Made by a program: the position numbers and the translations under genes. Shown here in pieces: positions 22,126 through 36,467 of a stretch of DNA of 37,525 nt. The notes under the pieces are model-generated. The model was given only the letters and a program-made list of their open reading frames with translations, was not told the DNA's origin and searched no databases. This DNA comes from Lachnospiraceae bacterium (GTDB taxonomy: Bacteria; Bacillota; Clostridia; Lachnospirales; Lachnospiraceae). Each line of letters begins with the position of its first letter. Position 1 is the first letter of the stretch. Location of the stretch: the NCBI GenBank assembly GCA_017962825.1, contig JAGCUO010000154.1, positions 1 through 37,525 of the forward strand. Reading direction: 5' to 3'.

Positions 22126-22258
22126 ATTAAACCTCCTTGTGTCTATAGAGCCAATAAGTATTGTTCAAAATAATCGTAATATATCGCGCAGGCTTTTGCA
22201 ACGTAATTTGTAGATGAATTTTACAGCACTTTTTTTCTGTAAACTCCACTCGAGAATA

Positions 22259-22391
22259 AGAGCCCCTTAGTCGCCACGTTCGACACAACCTGGGGGCGTG
22301 GGTGATGTCACCCCGATTATAAAAGCCCCTAAGTCGCCGAGTTCGACAAATCGTGTGGATCGGGGTGGGTGTCACCCCGATTAAAAGAACC
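22259..22391. repeat. Degenerate tandem repeats built on the tRNA-Pro 3' end
   Basis: Two units of about 62 bp (22259-22320 and 22321-22382) share AGCCCCT-AGTCGCC, GTTCGACA and TGTCACCCCGATTA. The second ends in the 30-bp repeat copy B (22362-22391), which also folds as ATCGGGGTG-5-CACCCCGAT. The CGGGGTG/CACCCCG pairing equals the acceptor stem of the adjacent tRNA. The stretch 22126-22438 has no convincing gene; a weak open frame here is repetitive and lacks a start signal. Confidence 0.75.
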
Positions 22392-22431: not shown

Positions 22432-22438
22432 AATTTAA

Positions 22439-22513
22439 TCGGGGTGACAGGATTCGAACCTGCGACCCCCTGGTCCCAAACCAGGTACTCTAGCCAAGCT
22501 GAGCCACACCCCG
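22439..22513 (-). tRNA. tRNA-Pro (anticodon TGG)
   Basis: The minus strand folds as a cloverleaf: acceptor CGGGGTG/CACCCCG, D-arm region GGCTCAGCTTGG, anticodon stem CCTGG/CCAGG with loop TTTGGGA (TGG at positions 34-36), and T-arm GCAGG-TTCGAAT-CCTGT with discriminator A. CCA is not encoded. The mature 3' end recurs in the neighbouring repeats. Confidence 0.97.
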
Positions 22514-22592
22514 AAAAACAGTAAGATTATACTATCAAAAGCAGTTCAAAACAAGCCACAGACTGTTTTAGGTCAGGAATCTTTTATTAGTC

Positions 22593-31958: not shown

Positions 31959-31987
31959 TTGAAAACCTACTAAACTAGTTGTATTAT
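31959..31987 (+). promoter_or_regulatory. Promoter of the Rrf2 gene with palindromic spacer
   Basis: TTGAAA (31959-31964), 17 bp, TATTAT (31982-31987). The spacer contains the 8-bp palindrome AACTAGTT (31973-31980), a candidate autoregulatory site. Confidence 0.65.
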
Positions 31988-32020: not shown

Positions 32021-32434
32021 ATGCTCATCTCAACCAAGGGAAGATATGCGCTTCGCGTCATAATCGATATCGCAGCTCACGATCAGGATGAGTTTATCCC
32101 TTTGAGCGAGGTTGCGGAAAGACAGGCTATCTCCAAAAAGTACCTTGAAGCCATCATCAAAGATCTGGTTCAGGCTGGCATCGTGAAAGGCGTTCGCGGA
32201 AAAGGCGGCGGATATAAGCTTAATGTGAAGCCCGAAGAATGCACCGCATGGGATGTTATTCACGCTACCGAGGATAATTTGGTCACCGTCTCTTGCGTGT
32301 CCATGGAGAATTTCGATTGCCCTCAGAAGTCCGCGTGCAGGACTATGCCGATGTGGACCGAACTTGATAAGACGCTCAAGGAATTTTTCAGCAAATATAC
32401 CATTAAAGAACTGCTTGAAAGCGGATCATACTAA
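32021..32434 (+). CDS. Rrf2-family transcriptional regulator
   Basis: The protein is 137 residues from the ATG at 32021, with GGAGG about 6 bp upstream. It has the N-terminal winged helix MLISTKGRYALRVIIDIA, the recognition region AISKKYLEAIIKDLVQAGIV and wing GVRGKGGGYKL. Three Cys (92, 100 and 106; C-x7-C-x5-C) are placed like the [2Fe-2S] ligands of IscR/NsrR-type members (though CymR-type regulators lack them), so cluster binding is possible. It may sense iron-sulfur or redox state. It is followed by a terminator and then the MntP-ZIP gene. Confidence 0.9.
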   Translation: MLISTKGRYALRVIIDIAAHDQDEFIPLSEVAERQAISKKYLEAIIKDLVQAGIVKGVRGKGGGYKLNVKPEECTAWDVIHATEDNLVTVSCVSMENFDCPQKSACRTMPMWTELDKTLKEFFSKYTIKELLESGSY

Positions 32435-32440
32435 GATCAC

Positions 32441-32471
32441 TAAAAGTCTTGCCAAGGCAGGACTTTTTTAG
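32441..32471 (+). terminator. Terminator between the Rrf2 and MntP-ZIP genes
   Basis: AAAAGTC-T-TGCC pairs with GGCA-GGACTTTT, followed by a T-run. The MntP-ZIP ATG is only about 25 bp further, so that gene may be controlled by readthrough here. Confidence 0.8.
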
Positions 32472-32495: not shown

Positions 32496-33875
32496 ATGGG
32501 TTTAGGTGAAGTATTACTCTTATCTGTGGGACTGGCCATGGATGCCTTTGCGGTTTCCGTATGCAAAGGTCTCTCTCTCAAAAAAGTAACTATTAAAGAA
32601 GCATCCGTATGCGGTATCTGGTTCGGTCTCTTTCAGGGCATCATGCCCCTTTTGGGATACCTGCTGGGTTCCGGATTTGCCTCTTTCATAGACAGATTTG
32701 CCGCATGGATCGCATTTCTGATCCTTACGATACTCGGCATTAATATGCTCAGGGAAGCCTTCGGATCCGATGAGGATGATGAAGAAGCCACTCCTGATCT
32801 GGGATTTAAGGTAATGCTCGGTGCTGCGGTAGCTACAAGCATTGATGCAATGGCAGTCGGTGTTACTTTTGTGGCTGTTCCCGTTAGGATCTTTTCCGGA
32901 TCTGCCCTGATCAACACTTTCTTGGCTGTAGCATGCATAGGTATCATCACCTATGTGATATCGGCATTGGGTGTCTTCATAGGAGGATACTTCGGTGCGG
33001 CATACAAGTCCGGTGCGGTTGCGGCCGGCGGAAGCATCCTCATATTCATCGGTCTAAAAGCATTAATGGATAAATACGATATCACGGGGGCCGGTAACGA
33101 TAATATCTTCTGGCTTCTGCTTCCTTTTGCGGGAACTGTTCTCGGTGCGCTGCTTGTATTCTTCCGCATAAATACTCCGGATAAACTCAAAAAATGCCTC
33201 ATTGCTCTGTCCGCAGGCATCATGCTCTCCGCATCCATATGGTGTCTTATGACTCCTTCGTTTTCGCTTCCTTTCTTCGGATCCGTGAAGCCTTTTATAG
33301 TCGTCTTTATCGGTTTCTGGGTGGGAATGCTCTTCCAGTTCGGTCTGGACAATCTTGTTCCTCACACTCACGGATTCTCGGGTGAGACCGAAGGCCTCAG
33401 ATCCGAAGCCGACAAGCCGGTTAAGATGATGATGGCGATGATAATCCATCATATTCCGGAAGGCATTGCCATAGGTGCGGTTTATGCCGGATTTTTATAC
33501 GGTGAAGGAATTATCTCCCGCTATTCCATGATAGCTGTAACAGTCGGAATGTTGATACAGAATTTCCCGGAAGCTGCATTTCTCTCGGTTCCCGTCAAGG
33601 AAGAGGGACGCAGCAAAGGAGCATCCTTTTTCTATGGTATGATGAGCGGCGGCGTGGAGCCCATCATCGGAATCGTAACCGTAATAATCGCGGGACTTTT
33701 CCCTCCCATCTTACCCTATGTGATGTCTCTCTCGGCCGGAGCCATGATCTATACGATAGTCGAGTCCATGATCCCCGAGATGATAGAAGGAGAAGTAAGT
33801 GACAGAGTCGTATTAGCCTTCGCGGCAGGCTTCTCACTTATGATGCTCCTTGCCTATGGACTGCCCATGCTGTAA
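32496..33875 (+). CDS. MntP manganese exporter fused to ZIP-family metal transporter
   Basis: One uninterrupted 459-residue frame. Residues 1-192 are a complete MntP-like exporter, with the paired acidic membrane motifs LAMDAFAVSV (Asp16) and ATSIDAMAVG (Asp117) and six TM segments. After a short loop, residues 205-459 form a ZIP-like domain of about seven to eight TM segments with HHIPEGIAIG (317-326) and QNFPEAAF (355-362), equivalent to the ZIP metal sites HNIPEG and its second half, plus a His-bearing loop VPHTHGF. MntP exports Mn2+ while ZIP members move Zn, Fe or Mn. The direction of the combined protein is unknown. AGGTGAAAC precedes the ATG. No yybP-ykoY leader is visible. Confidence 0.9.
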   Translation: MGLGEVLLLSVGLAMDAFAVSVCKGLSLKKVTIKEASVCGIWFGLFQGIMPLLGYLLGSGFASFIDRFAAWIAFLILTILGINMLREAFGSDEDDEEATPDLGFKVMLGAAVATSIDAMAVGVTFVAVPVRIFSGSALINTFLAVACIGIITYVISALGVFIGGYFGAAYKSGAVAAGGSILIFIGLKALMDKYDITGAGNDNIFWLLLPFAGTVLGALLVFFRINTPDKLKKCLIALSAGIMLSASIWCLMTPSFSLPFFGSVKPFIVVFIGFWVGMLFQFGLDNLVPHTHGFSGETEGLRSEADKPVKMMMAMIIHHIPEGIAIGAVYAGFLYGEGIISRYSMIAVTVGMLIQNFPEAAFLSVPVKEEGRSKGASFFYGMMSGGVEPIIGIVTVIIAGLFPPILPYVMSLSAGAMIYTIVESMIPEMIEGEVSDRVVLAFAAGFSLMMLLAYGLPML

Positions 33876-33914: not shown

Positions 33915-34230
33915 TTTTACAGCCCCGAAGCAGGATCAACCTTCATTCCTGCCTTCGGGGCTGTAATTTTTCCTGAAACCTGCTCTTTTACAGTCCCCGG
34001 TGCATGATTTACCCTTTATTTCCGCCTTCGGGGCTGTAATTTTATCTGTAATCTGCCATTTTACAGTCCCCGAAGCTGGATTTACTCTTTATTTCCGCCT
34101 TCGGGGCTGTAATTTTTCCTGATACCTGCTCTTTTACAGTCCACGAGGCAGGATTTGCTCTTCATTTCCACAGAATGGACTGTAATTCTTCTCAAATCCC
34201 GCTGTTTTACAGCCCCACTCTTCATATCGA
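33915..34230. repeat. Array of tandem 71-73-bp hairpin repeats
   Basis: Five units begin with TTTTACAG at 33915, 33986, 34059, 34132 and 34205 (periods 71, 73, 73, 73). Units 1-3 fold as long hairpins with arms TTACAG(T)CCCC and CTTCGGGGCTGTAA followed by a T-run. Unit 4 has changed arms that still pair (TTACAGTCCA / TGGACTGTAA). Unit 5 keeps only the left arm. This fills the gap between the convergent MntP-ZIP and xylanase genes; no open frame is supported here. The units could be stacked terminators or small RNA modules. Confidence 0.88.
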
Positions 34231-34328: not shown

Positions 34329-36467
34329 TTATTTCTTTGAAGTTTCTTTGGACTCTTCCTTAGCTTCGTCCTTAGAATCGTCTTTGGATTCTTCCTCAGC
34401 TTTGCCCTTAGAATCTTTACCGGAATCTTCTTTGGATTCGTCCTTGGATCCTTCCTTAGCTTCTTCCTTCTTACGATTCTGTCTTGAAAGAGCTACGGAT
34501 GAAAGTAAGAGGACTACTATTGCGGCAGTTCCGGCACCATGGTTTCCGTTGCTTTCGCCATCCTGAGTTTCACTCTGTCCATCCTCATTACCTGATGCTT
34601 CTGCACCGGTTTCATCTGCTCCGTCACCGTCAAACCCTTCGGCTGCATCGGAACCGTCCGAAAGTGCAATGCTGAAATCGTCGATGTAGAAGTCTCCGCT
34701 TCCGTCGGTTTCAAAGAACAATGCCGCAGTATCCAGATCTTCGGGAAGTTTCAAAGTAGCTTCGATAAGCTGCCAGTCTTCTCCGGCAATGTCATACTCT
34801 CTTACTCCGCCGTCCTCATATCCGTCAACACCCATGAAAAGCTTGGTATCGGAAGACTTGTAATAATATGAGATCTTTATGGTATGTCCGATGAATCTGG
34901 TAATGTCATATCTGAGAGTTGCATCTGCTTCAGAACGTCTTACCTGAAGCGAGAATCCGGGATTGGCTCCCTCTGTGTGATTCTCTTTGATCTTGAGCAT
35001 TATGGAAGCCTGATGTCCCGATCCGCGGCTTACAAAGCCAAGTTTATCGGGAACCTGAGGAGTTGAAGTTCCATCAACGATGACCGGCTCAAAATCGATC
35101 ACCATATCCTCTGCTTTGCCGATTCCGGATGTATCGGTAAGGGTAAATTCCTCACCTTTTCCCGCCATGATAACTGCCTCATATGCAGGCTTTCCCGTAA
35201 GATCCTGATAGAAAAGAAGGGGTTCAGACTCTTTTCTCCAGGAACTGGTATCGGTAAGTCCCCACAAGGTTACCGAATTGATATTCGCACCTGCATCCTG
35301 ACAGTCGCAGAGCATCTTGAAATAATCATAGTAGAACTTAGCCTGCTTAAACTCACCGGCTTCTCCGGCTACGGCTTTTCCTACATCAAGCTCGGTTACC
35401 TGAAGATTGTTAATAGCAGCGGAATACTTCTCGATTGCATCCTTATACTGATAAAGCGAATCGGATACGGTAAGATGACCCTGAAGTCCTATTCCATCGA
35501 TAAGTCCGTCTCCGTAAATGGTTCCGTCTCCGTCAGGATTGATGACATCACTCTTAACCATTGTATGTCCCGCATTAAACTGAGTCTCTGTCAGGAAAGC
35601 AATGATGGCATCACACTTTTTGGGGAACCACTCATTGTAGTCATTATAGTAAAGACCCGGAGTGATGGAAGAAAGATCTCCCTCGGGATCAAGACCGTAA
35701 AGATCCGCATACTGAGCGGCATACTTGGTCTCTGCTTCTCTTGCATAAAGAAATGCATAGTACAGGAAATCGGGACCGATGATCTTGTACCAGTAACTCT
35801 TTCTCATACCGTCAGCCTGGCTCTCGTCGGCTGCTTCATTTACTACATCCCATGCATAGATCACGTCAGCATAACCGTTTGCATAAGTGTACTCGATAAC
35901 TCCGTTTATGTACTTCTCAAGTCTGTTAAGAAGCTCATCTCTGCTAACAAGACAATCTTCATCAAGGGTTGCATTATAATCCCTTGTAGGCTTGCCTGAA
36001 ACAGTAGCAGTGAAGTCCTTGGCAAAGATCGAAGGATCAACCTGAGAGTGCCACACAAGTGTATGTCCTCTTACAGGTACTCCGTTTTCCTTGGCCCAAT
36101 CAAGAAGCTCTTCAGCTGCTCTGTTTACGGTAAAAAGAGAATCGGACTCTGCGTCAAAATTATACGCAGGCTTGAACTCATTACCGAATGTCATTGAATT
36201 GAACTGACTTGCTATGAACTGCTCTTTGCTCGGGTTACCGATCTCGGCAGACTGATCACCCCAATGGCTGATAGCCTGAACGGCAACACCCACCTTAAAT
36301 CTGTCGGCATATACATCTTTTAATACACCAACCGCTTCATAGTCACTTACCCCTTCGGCTCTGACAACATTTACCGATCCGGCAAATCCCGACAAAACCG
36401 TTGCCGCTGCCATGCTTAACCCCAGCACAGCGGCACAAATTTTCCGCGCCAATACTTTCTTTCTCAT
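34329..36467 (-). CDS. Secreted, membrane-anchored GH10 endo-1,4-beta-xylanase
   Basis: The 712-residue protein has a signal peptide (about 1-37, ending VRAEG), then a complete GH10 barrel (about 45-435) with acid/base Glu211 in DVVNEA and nucleophile Glu359 in VTELDV. A beta-sandwich, CBM_4_9-like carbohydrate-binding module covers about 455-605. An acidic linker, one TM segment (GTAAIVVLLLSSVAL, about 645-660) and a roughly 50-residue Lys/Glu/Ser/Asp tail follow. The TM plus basic start of the tail should fix the enzyme on the cell surface with the tail inside. It hydrolyses xylan backbones. It overlaps the upstream gene by 4 bp, implying coupling. Confidence 0.94.
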   Translation of the reverse strand: MRKKVLARKICAAVLGLSMAAATVLSGFAGSVNVVRAEGVSDYEAVGVLKDVYADRFKVGVAVQAISHWGDQSAEIGNPSKEQFIASQFNSMTFGNEFKPAYNFDAESDSLFTVNRAAEELLDWAKENGVPVRGHTLVWHSQVDPSIFAKDFTATVSGKPTRDYNATLDEDCLVSRDELLNRLEKYINGVIEYTYANGYADVIYAWDVVNEAADESQADGMRKSYWYKIIGPDFLYYAFLYAREAETKYAAQYADLYGLDPEGDLSSITPGLYYNDYNEWFPKKCDAIIAFLTETQFNAGHTMVKSDVINPDGDGTIYGDGLIDGIGLQGHLTVSDSLYQYKDAIEKYSAAINNLQVTELDVGKAVAGEAGEFKQAKFYYDYFKMLCDCQDAGANINSVTLWGLTDTSSWRKESEPLLFYQDLTGKPAYEAVIMAGKGEEFTLTDTSGIGKAEDMVIDFEPVIVDGTSTPQVPDKLGFVSRGSGHQASIMLKIKENHTEGANPGFSLQVRRSEADATLRYDITRFIGHTIKISYYYKSSDTKLFMGVDGYEDGGVREYDIAGEDWQLIEATLKLPEDLDTAALFFETDGSGDFYIDDFSIALSDGSDAAEGFDGDGADETGAEASGNEDGQSETQDGESNGNHGAGTAAIVVLLLSSVALSRQNRKKEEAKEGSKDESKEDSGKDSKGKAEEESKDDSKDEAKEESKETSKK

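Follow-up and report, generated by a model that had tools for sequence, protein, structure and literature searches.

How a transporter expected to expel one metal and a transporter expected to admit another come to be made as a single polypeptide is the question raised by a gene in a stretch of DNA from Lachnospiraceae bacterium (assembly GCA_017962825.1, contig JAGCUO010000154.1, positions 1 to 37,525; this whole stretch of 37,525 nucleotides is termed the window). Metal exporters and importers are normally separate proteins that are separately regulated. Here a complete MntP manganese exporter (residues 1-192), a short linker and a complete ZIP transporter (residues ~205-459) lie in one frame. 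The parts are known, the arrangement is new, real and conserved, and it carries one active-site change that is linked to the fusion. A chain that holds both transporters has been kept over long divergence, and a residue of its ZIP metal site changes along with the fusion, which makes it a natural experiment in ZIP specificity. It also bears on the cellular balance of Mn with Fe or Zn, and the shared altered residue at the metal site of the importer hints at a single metal-balancing device. The features of the gene are as follows.

32496..33875, + strand: MntP-ZIP fusion gene, encoding 459 aa from its ATG to the stop; 27 genomes have this architecture
32496..33071, + strand: MntP half, residues 1-192, six predicted helices, Pfam Mntp match above cut-off
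32541-32543 and 32844-32846, both + strand: D16 and D117 of the MntP Asp motifs
33072..33107, + strand: linker, residues 193-204, predicted outside the cell from a junction alignment of the 27 fused proteins and charge bias
33108..33872, + strand: ZIP half, residues 205-459, eight predicted helices
33348..33371, + strand: D285, H290 and H292 (BbZIP D144, H149 and H151, the cytoplasmic M3 site), in 27/27 fused proteins
33447..33452, + strand: H318 (BbZIP H177, M1 site) and H319 (BbZIP N178), the latter a fusion-specific His
33558..33572, + strand: QNFPE, with Q355, N356 and E359 (BbZIP Q207, D208 and E211), in 27/27 fused and 42/42 standalone ZIPs
33657..33659, + strand: E388 (BbZIP E240, an M2 ligand), Glu in 13/27 fused proteins

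Positions 32496-33875 of the forward strand form a single frame of 459 codons without an internal stop. The Pfam profile Mntp (PF02659) matches residues 31-190 (E 7e-39, 133.5 bits, above the cut-off of 24.4), and Zip (PF02535) matches residues 312-453 (E 9e-8) with 32.1 bits for the protein alone, against a cut-off of 35.1, and with 37.3 bits, above that cut-off, in the genome search, in which the frame included neighbours. BbZIP matches residues 204-453 in phmmer (E ~1e-20). The names given by NCBIfam are MntP for one half and ZupT for the other, in both cases far below the equivalog cut-offs, which are not reached by the 102.5 bits for MntP (PRK11469, cut-off 214) or the 72.6 bits for ZupT (PRK04201, cut-off 252). 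A first-pass annotation had read from the letters that both transporters are complete and share one frame, and the frame, D16 and D117, the HHIPEG and QNFPEA motifs, the Pfam Mntp match and the BbZIP match all agree with it. Homology between the two halves was considered and rejected, the stretches of the MntP half that match the ZIP profile having i-Evalues of at least 1 (in the four proteins listed) and the best probability in a profile-profile comparison being 18.6%.

With MntP (YebN, LysE superfamily, PF02659 / TC 2.A.107) the first 192 residues share the family match, the Asp motifs and six helices; unlike MntP, the fusion continues at the C-terminus into an entire second transporter. The MntP family is described as having ~200 residues and six transmembrane segments, and the words "fusion" and "fused" are absent from the available part of that text (PMC4608589). 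An MntP-ZIP combination is undescribed in the open paper library that was searched, a library that has subscription papers outside its coverage, and further literature searches gave, as judged by titles and abstracts, only papers on the separate proteins.

The same architecture, searched for as a full-length match in one frame as the first-pass annotation had proposed, is present in 27 distinct genomes, the draws of genomes being overlapping ones. It was found in 15 of 143 close relatives (the own genome counted), in 11 of 397 genomes of the family, in five of 295 of the order (all of the window's family), in four of 391 of the class (three of them from another family) and in one of 398 of the phylum, which is the own genome. 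The 27 comprise 24 genomes of the window's family, from 12 genera, and three of one genus in another family; within the window's own genus the fusion occurs in 12 of the 31 genomes among the close relatives. The hosts are some gut and rumen bacteria, and 14 fusions aligned with that of the window have 46-95% identity to its protein. The fusion of genome G002 runs to the contig end. Locus L036, whose record breaks off within the linker where its contig ends, probably represents a 28th; it was kept among the standalone MntPs in the trees and the site alignment. Homologues are accordingly not confined to separate genes, although close relatives do also have separate MntP and ZIP genes.

That the gene is an artefact of assembly or binning, or a frameshift hiding a stop, might be suspected because its genome is a metagenome-assembled genome (MAG; 81% complete, 204 contigs) and because genomes G022 and G824, which belong to different orders, have near-identical fusions, so that one may be mis-binned. 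The chance of this is negligible, since the fusion recurs in 27 genomes, several of them near complete, with the junction midway in long contigs, and one of the four fusions with named records, KL370861 (Lachnospiraceae bacterium P6A3, 917 kb), is not labelled as a MAG. Independent assemblies that carry the same fusion rule the artefact out, and with it the lost stop codon or frameshift between the halves against which the annotation had cautioned. The near-identical pair itself (L014, G022:C90, and L074, G824:C6) reflects either a recent transfer or a mis-binned contig of 3.5 kb. Carriage on plasmids or phages was also considered and was dropped, because in tblastn none of 275 plasmid and 33 phage records had a single place covering 80% of the query.

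Beyond what the first-pass annotation had noticed, the ZIP half has a histidine that is specific to the fusion. Sites were compared between 27 fused and 42 standalone ZIPs after alignment, numbered from the BbZIP sequence alignment and the available part of PMC11549095; the 42 are those fetched, mostly high-scoring members of Lachnospiraceae, and are not a census. The five M1 ligands M243, H318, E322, Q355 and E359 (BbZIP M99, H177, E181, Q207 and E211) are present in 27/27 fused and 42/42 standalone proteins. At M3, the D144 and H149 equivalents are invariant in both sets and H151 is found in 27/27 fused and 41/42 standalone proteins. The residue that adjoins the key histidine, BbZIP Asn178, is His (H319) in 27/27 fused and Asn in 42/42 standalone proteins, and HN is also what each of seven ZIP relatives on viral contigs has. 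Genomes were scanned at the DNA level for I-H-H-x-P-E-G, with matches in 14 of 190 genomes of the family and eight of 177 of the class, at 23 loci, of which eight are ZIPs, all eight being fusions, and the other 15 are without a ZIP or MntP match; the pattern demands Ile before HH, where the standalone consensus is Leu, so LHH standalone forms are missed.

Compared with BbZIP and other GufA-type ZIPs (PF02535), the fusion differs in this His for Asn178 and in the MntP in front. D208 is Asn in the fusions and likewise in the 42 standalone relatives, and the E240 equivalent, Glu in 13 fused proteins, is Val, Ile or Thr in the other 14. The M2 set of BbZIP (N178, D208, E240) is not matched by the His, Asn and Glu of the window, but since M2 is auxiliary and variable within the ZIP family this does not exclude ZIP membership. 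The standalone ZIPs that these genomes also hold (such as L002, own genome C55) have 43% identity to the ZIP half and the same M1 site, and differ in having HN, not HH. In a ZIP tree a branch with 100/97 support separates them from all of the fused ZIPs, and the same split was recovered at 100/99 when two long rows were left out, although the program then warned that branches were long and that the bootstrap had not settled.

Two intact metal sites had been named as a point to check. As far as ligands go they are there, since D16 and D117 are invariant in all 61 aligned MntP sequences (27 fused and 34 others) and the M1 ligands of the ZIP half are conserved as described. The ZIP half folds onto BbZIP in the predicted structure, while no solved sequence matched the MntP half with an E of 1 or less, and this half is unmatched among the rows of a fold comparison that barely probes it. 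The first model predicted MntP helices at 3-27, 33-60, 62-88, 104-127, 137-165 and 171-193, an arrangement of 3+3, and the second merges helices into one run, 33-89. The first AlphaFold2 model was poor (pLDDT 49, pTM 0.41) and served solely for the helix limits in the charge-bias analysis, which agrees with the native topology of both halves and a linker predicted to lie outside. The junctions of the window, L006, L049 and L036 are alike (D-x-[ST]-G-A). The sole in-frame start at the junction in the window is an ATG at residue 191 without a Shine-Dalgarno-like match before it, and nine of the 27 fused genes have a loose match of this kind. Both halves are under strong purifying selection, that on the ZIP half being as strong as that on the MntP half.

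What such a protein might do is suggested by what its parts do elsewhere. In Escherichia coli MntP exports Mn2+, and in its absence Mn overload cuts free iron and stalls haem synthesis, according to the available part of PMC4361602. The bacterial ZIPs described so far import metal down its gradient and depend on M1 as the essential site, with M2 auxiliary (PMC7949119, in part). The chain of 14 predicted helices would run from an MntP of six helices with both ends outside, through an outside linker, to a GufA/BbZIP-type ZIP of eight helices, also with both ends outside. The MntP half would pump out surplus Mn2+, and through the ZIP half a different divalent metal, Fe2+ or Zn2+, would enter along its gradient. 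A single gene product would thereby lower Mn, raise its competitor and set the ratio of the metals; the fusion-only His beside the key ZIP histidine would retune the two-metal site of the importer. From sequence, the chances that one protein carries Mn2+ out and Fe2+ or Zn2+ in, and so sets the metal ratio, appear evenly balanced. That the two halves are further coupled, with efflux and influx adjusted together in a single-protein regulator of the metal ratio that uses the second His, is somewhat doubtful. Coupled exchange, a bidirectional gate and a half turned sensor, all put forward by the first-pass annotation, are conjectural. Fe2+ is the first guess for the ZIP half because of the iron-linked neighbours FeoB, DtxR and Rrf2, and Zn2+ is the second guess; the extra His alone would favour Zn2+ by analogy with ZIP8, where His substitutions, at a different position, moved the preference towards zinc (PMC10372143, available in part).

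The same residues can be read another way, with the ZIP half sensing metal through its altered site or the M3 loop and gating the MntP half without bulk transport. The binuclear site is altered identically in all fused forms (H319, 27/27), the E240 equivalent is lost in 14/27 and the E276 equivalent is Ser in the window's four, D285, H290 and H292 of the M3 loop are invariant where M3 binding drives the conformation of BbZIP (PMC11549095, in the part available), and the own genome has a standalone ZIP for uptake. This is rather unlikely, however, given that the five M1 ligands, which form the essential transport site, are invariant in 27/27, that selection on the ZIP half matches that on MntP, and that the linker is short and predicted to be outside.

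Returning to import by the ZIP half, the gene content of the genomes bears on its direction. The own genome, at 81% completeness, has one Mntp gene, which is the fusion, two Zip genes and one DtxR, and Nramp was not found in it by profile search. Among the 15 close relatives with the fusion, 10 have it with one standalone ZIP and two have the fusion only, so that in 12 of the 15 it replaces a standalone MntP while the ordinary ZIP stays (in the 10). G034 and G022 have a third match beyond those listed. Together with the P-type ATPases near two fusions, this would fit a two-module exporter in which both halves face outward and the ZIP half provides efflux or a broad-range exit. Such an exporter is decidedly improbable, as the characterised bacterial ZIPs move metal inward (PMC7949119, same partial text) and the M1 site and the fold are those of an importer.

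The history of the fusion is less simple than the ZIP tree alone would imply. One clade of fused MntP halves is rejected (approximately unbiased test, p-AU 0.0062, six rows left out; p-AU 0.0066 on MntP residues 1-145), because five same-genus standalone MntPs (L017-L020, L025) group with the window's four fused proteins, the two sets being joined at 100/99; the five as one clade are not rejected (p-AU 0.192). These standalone MntPs stand at the same locus, have ~60-64% identity to the MntP half, share the flanking folC and end at the MntP stop, and no ZIP remnant was seen in the translated 1.2 kb downstream. Species of the same genus with the MntP half alone at the same locus offer a ready matched comparison. 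They also show that gain or loss of the ZIP half need not destroy the locus, as might be the case if two independent transporters with a shared transcript had been fused by a lost stop with no interplay between them. Chance adjacency of this kind is quite unlikely for a fusion whose copies, down to ~46% identity, are spread over 12 genera in the window's family and a single genus of a second family, with a fusion-only ZIP lineage and a fusion-only residue.

Two histories fit, an ancestral fusion from which the ZIP half was later lost and an independent gain; the first is favoured by the ZIP tree, by the junction and by H319 being common to the fused forms. A recombination graft of the ZIP half onto a resident MntP is a third candidate beside gain and loss. 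The identity of the window's four proteins to the same-genus standalone MntPs falls over the last residues (split at residue 159, permutation p 0.0074), as a graft would have it, but in this C-terminal stretch the standalone proteins diverge from all groups alike, and the C-terminal tree still unites them with the window's fused set (85/90, not starred). In that tree, one clade with the other fused proteins is not rejected (p-AU 0.27). The fusion is genuine and has probably been maintained both vertically and horizontally.

Several observations weigh against a conserved exporter-importer that balances two metals. The fusion is sporadic, most of the genomes searched being without a full-length copy, and the rejection of one MntP clade means that its history is not one simple inheritance. 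The second, standalone ZIP of the own genome means that import does not depend on the fusion, and at least one genome, G003, has a standalone MntP as well as the fusion. The loss of the E240 equivalent in 14/27 and the Ser at the E276 equivalent, which is confined to the window's subclade of four, mean that parts of the ZIP pathway are relaxed, and because M2 is auxiliary in the ZIPs covered by the available texts H319 may matter little. The comparison of neighbourhoods, finally, comprises nine loci with listed neighbours (10 proteins scanned) and 16 of the 25 loci compared by clustering.

Upstream of the fusion the window contains the following features.

31959..31987, + strand: promoter-like site before rrf2, TTGAAA - 17 bases - TATTAT, read from sequence, in 4/4 aligned loci
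32021..32434, + strand: Rrf2-family regulator with Cys-x7-Cys-x5-Cys, Pfam Rrf2 E 3e-36
32445..32469, + strand: terminator-like hairpin plus T run in the gap from rrf2 to the fusion, kept in 4/4 aligned loci of the window's subclade

The regulator exceeds the cut-off of NCBIfam rrf2_super (133 bits against 73) and does not reach the IscR equivalog (116 bits against 208); its Cys-x7-Cys-x5-Cys resembles the cysteine sets with which Rrf2 proteins bind Fe-S clusters. An Rrf2 gene directly upstream, behind a terminator-like hairpin, was correctly recognised at the outset and holds for the four aligned loci of the window's subclade. Its proposed role as a control point fares less well. Rrf2 adjoins the fusion in that subclade, but the link is not specific to the fusion, as Rrf2 is also upstream of the same-genus standalone MntP at L020, L025 and L019/L037, though not at L017 or L018. 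At L017 and L018 the TTGAAA/TATTAT promoter-like stretch that precedes rrf2 in the window stands immediately ahead of mntP, which is what a deletion of rrf2 would leave. The folC gene lies beside the standalone MntP at four of the five loci (L017, L018, L020, L025), and a xylanase-like gene lies downstream in two fetched standalone-MntP stretches and in L037, a longer record of L019. The yybP-ykoY riboswitch is a Mn sensor found before mntP genes. Control by it was dropped, since Rfam gave no match at gathering in the window apart from a tRNA and none in 20 related loci, which are part of the set of loci.

Gene order differs among the fused clades (25 loci), the fusions of other clades lying in other neighbourhoods. 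Metal genes are near the fusion at five of the nine loci with listed neighbours (FeoB, DtxR and HMA; a P-type ATPase; a FeoB-associated-like gene), and the listed neighbours at the other four include no recognised metal gene. At L080:8585-13962, FeoB, a DtxR-type regulator, a phosphoglycerate-mutase-like gene, an HMA protein and the fusion follow one another, all on one strand, and ~4 kb beyond them lies a standalone ZIP. At L089:6477-8843 the frame of a P-type ATPase holds a long masked (N) run.

Repeats were seen at three places in the window. Directly 3' of the fusion, at 33915-34212, there are about four tandem units of 73 bases with CCCCGAAG...CTTCGGGG arms and T runs, perhaps acting as successive terminators where two genes converge. 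Short-period repeats at 34345-34469, at the 3' end of the xylanase-like gene (minus strand), give a Lys/Glu/Ser-rich tail. At 22256-22383 two copies of a 63-base repeat adjoin a tRNA-Pro gene (22438-22514, minus strand) and resemble the tRNA-Pro sequence.
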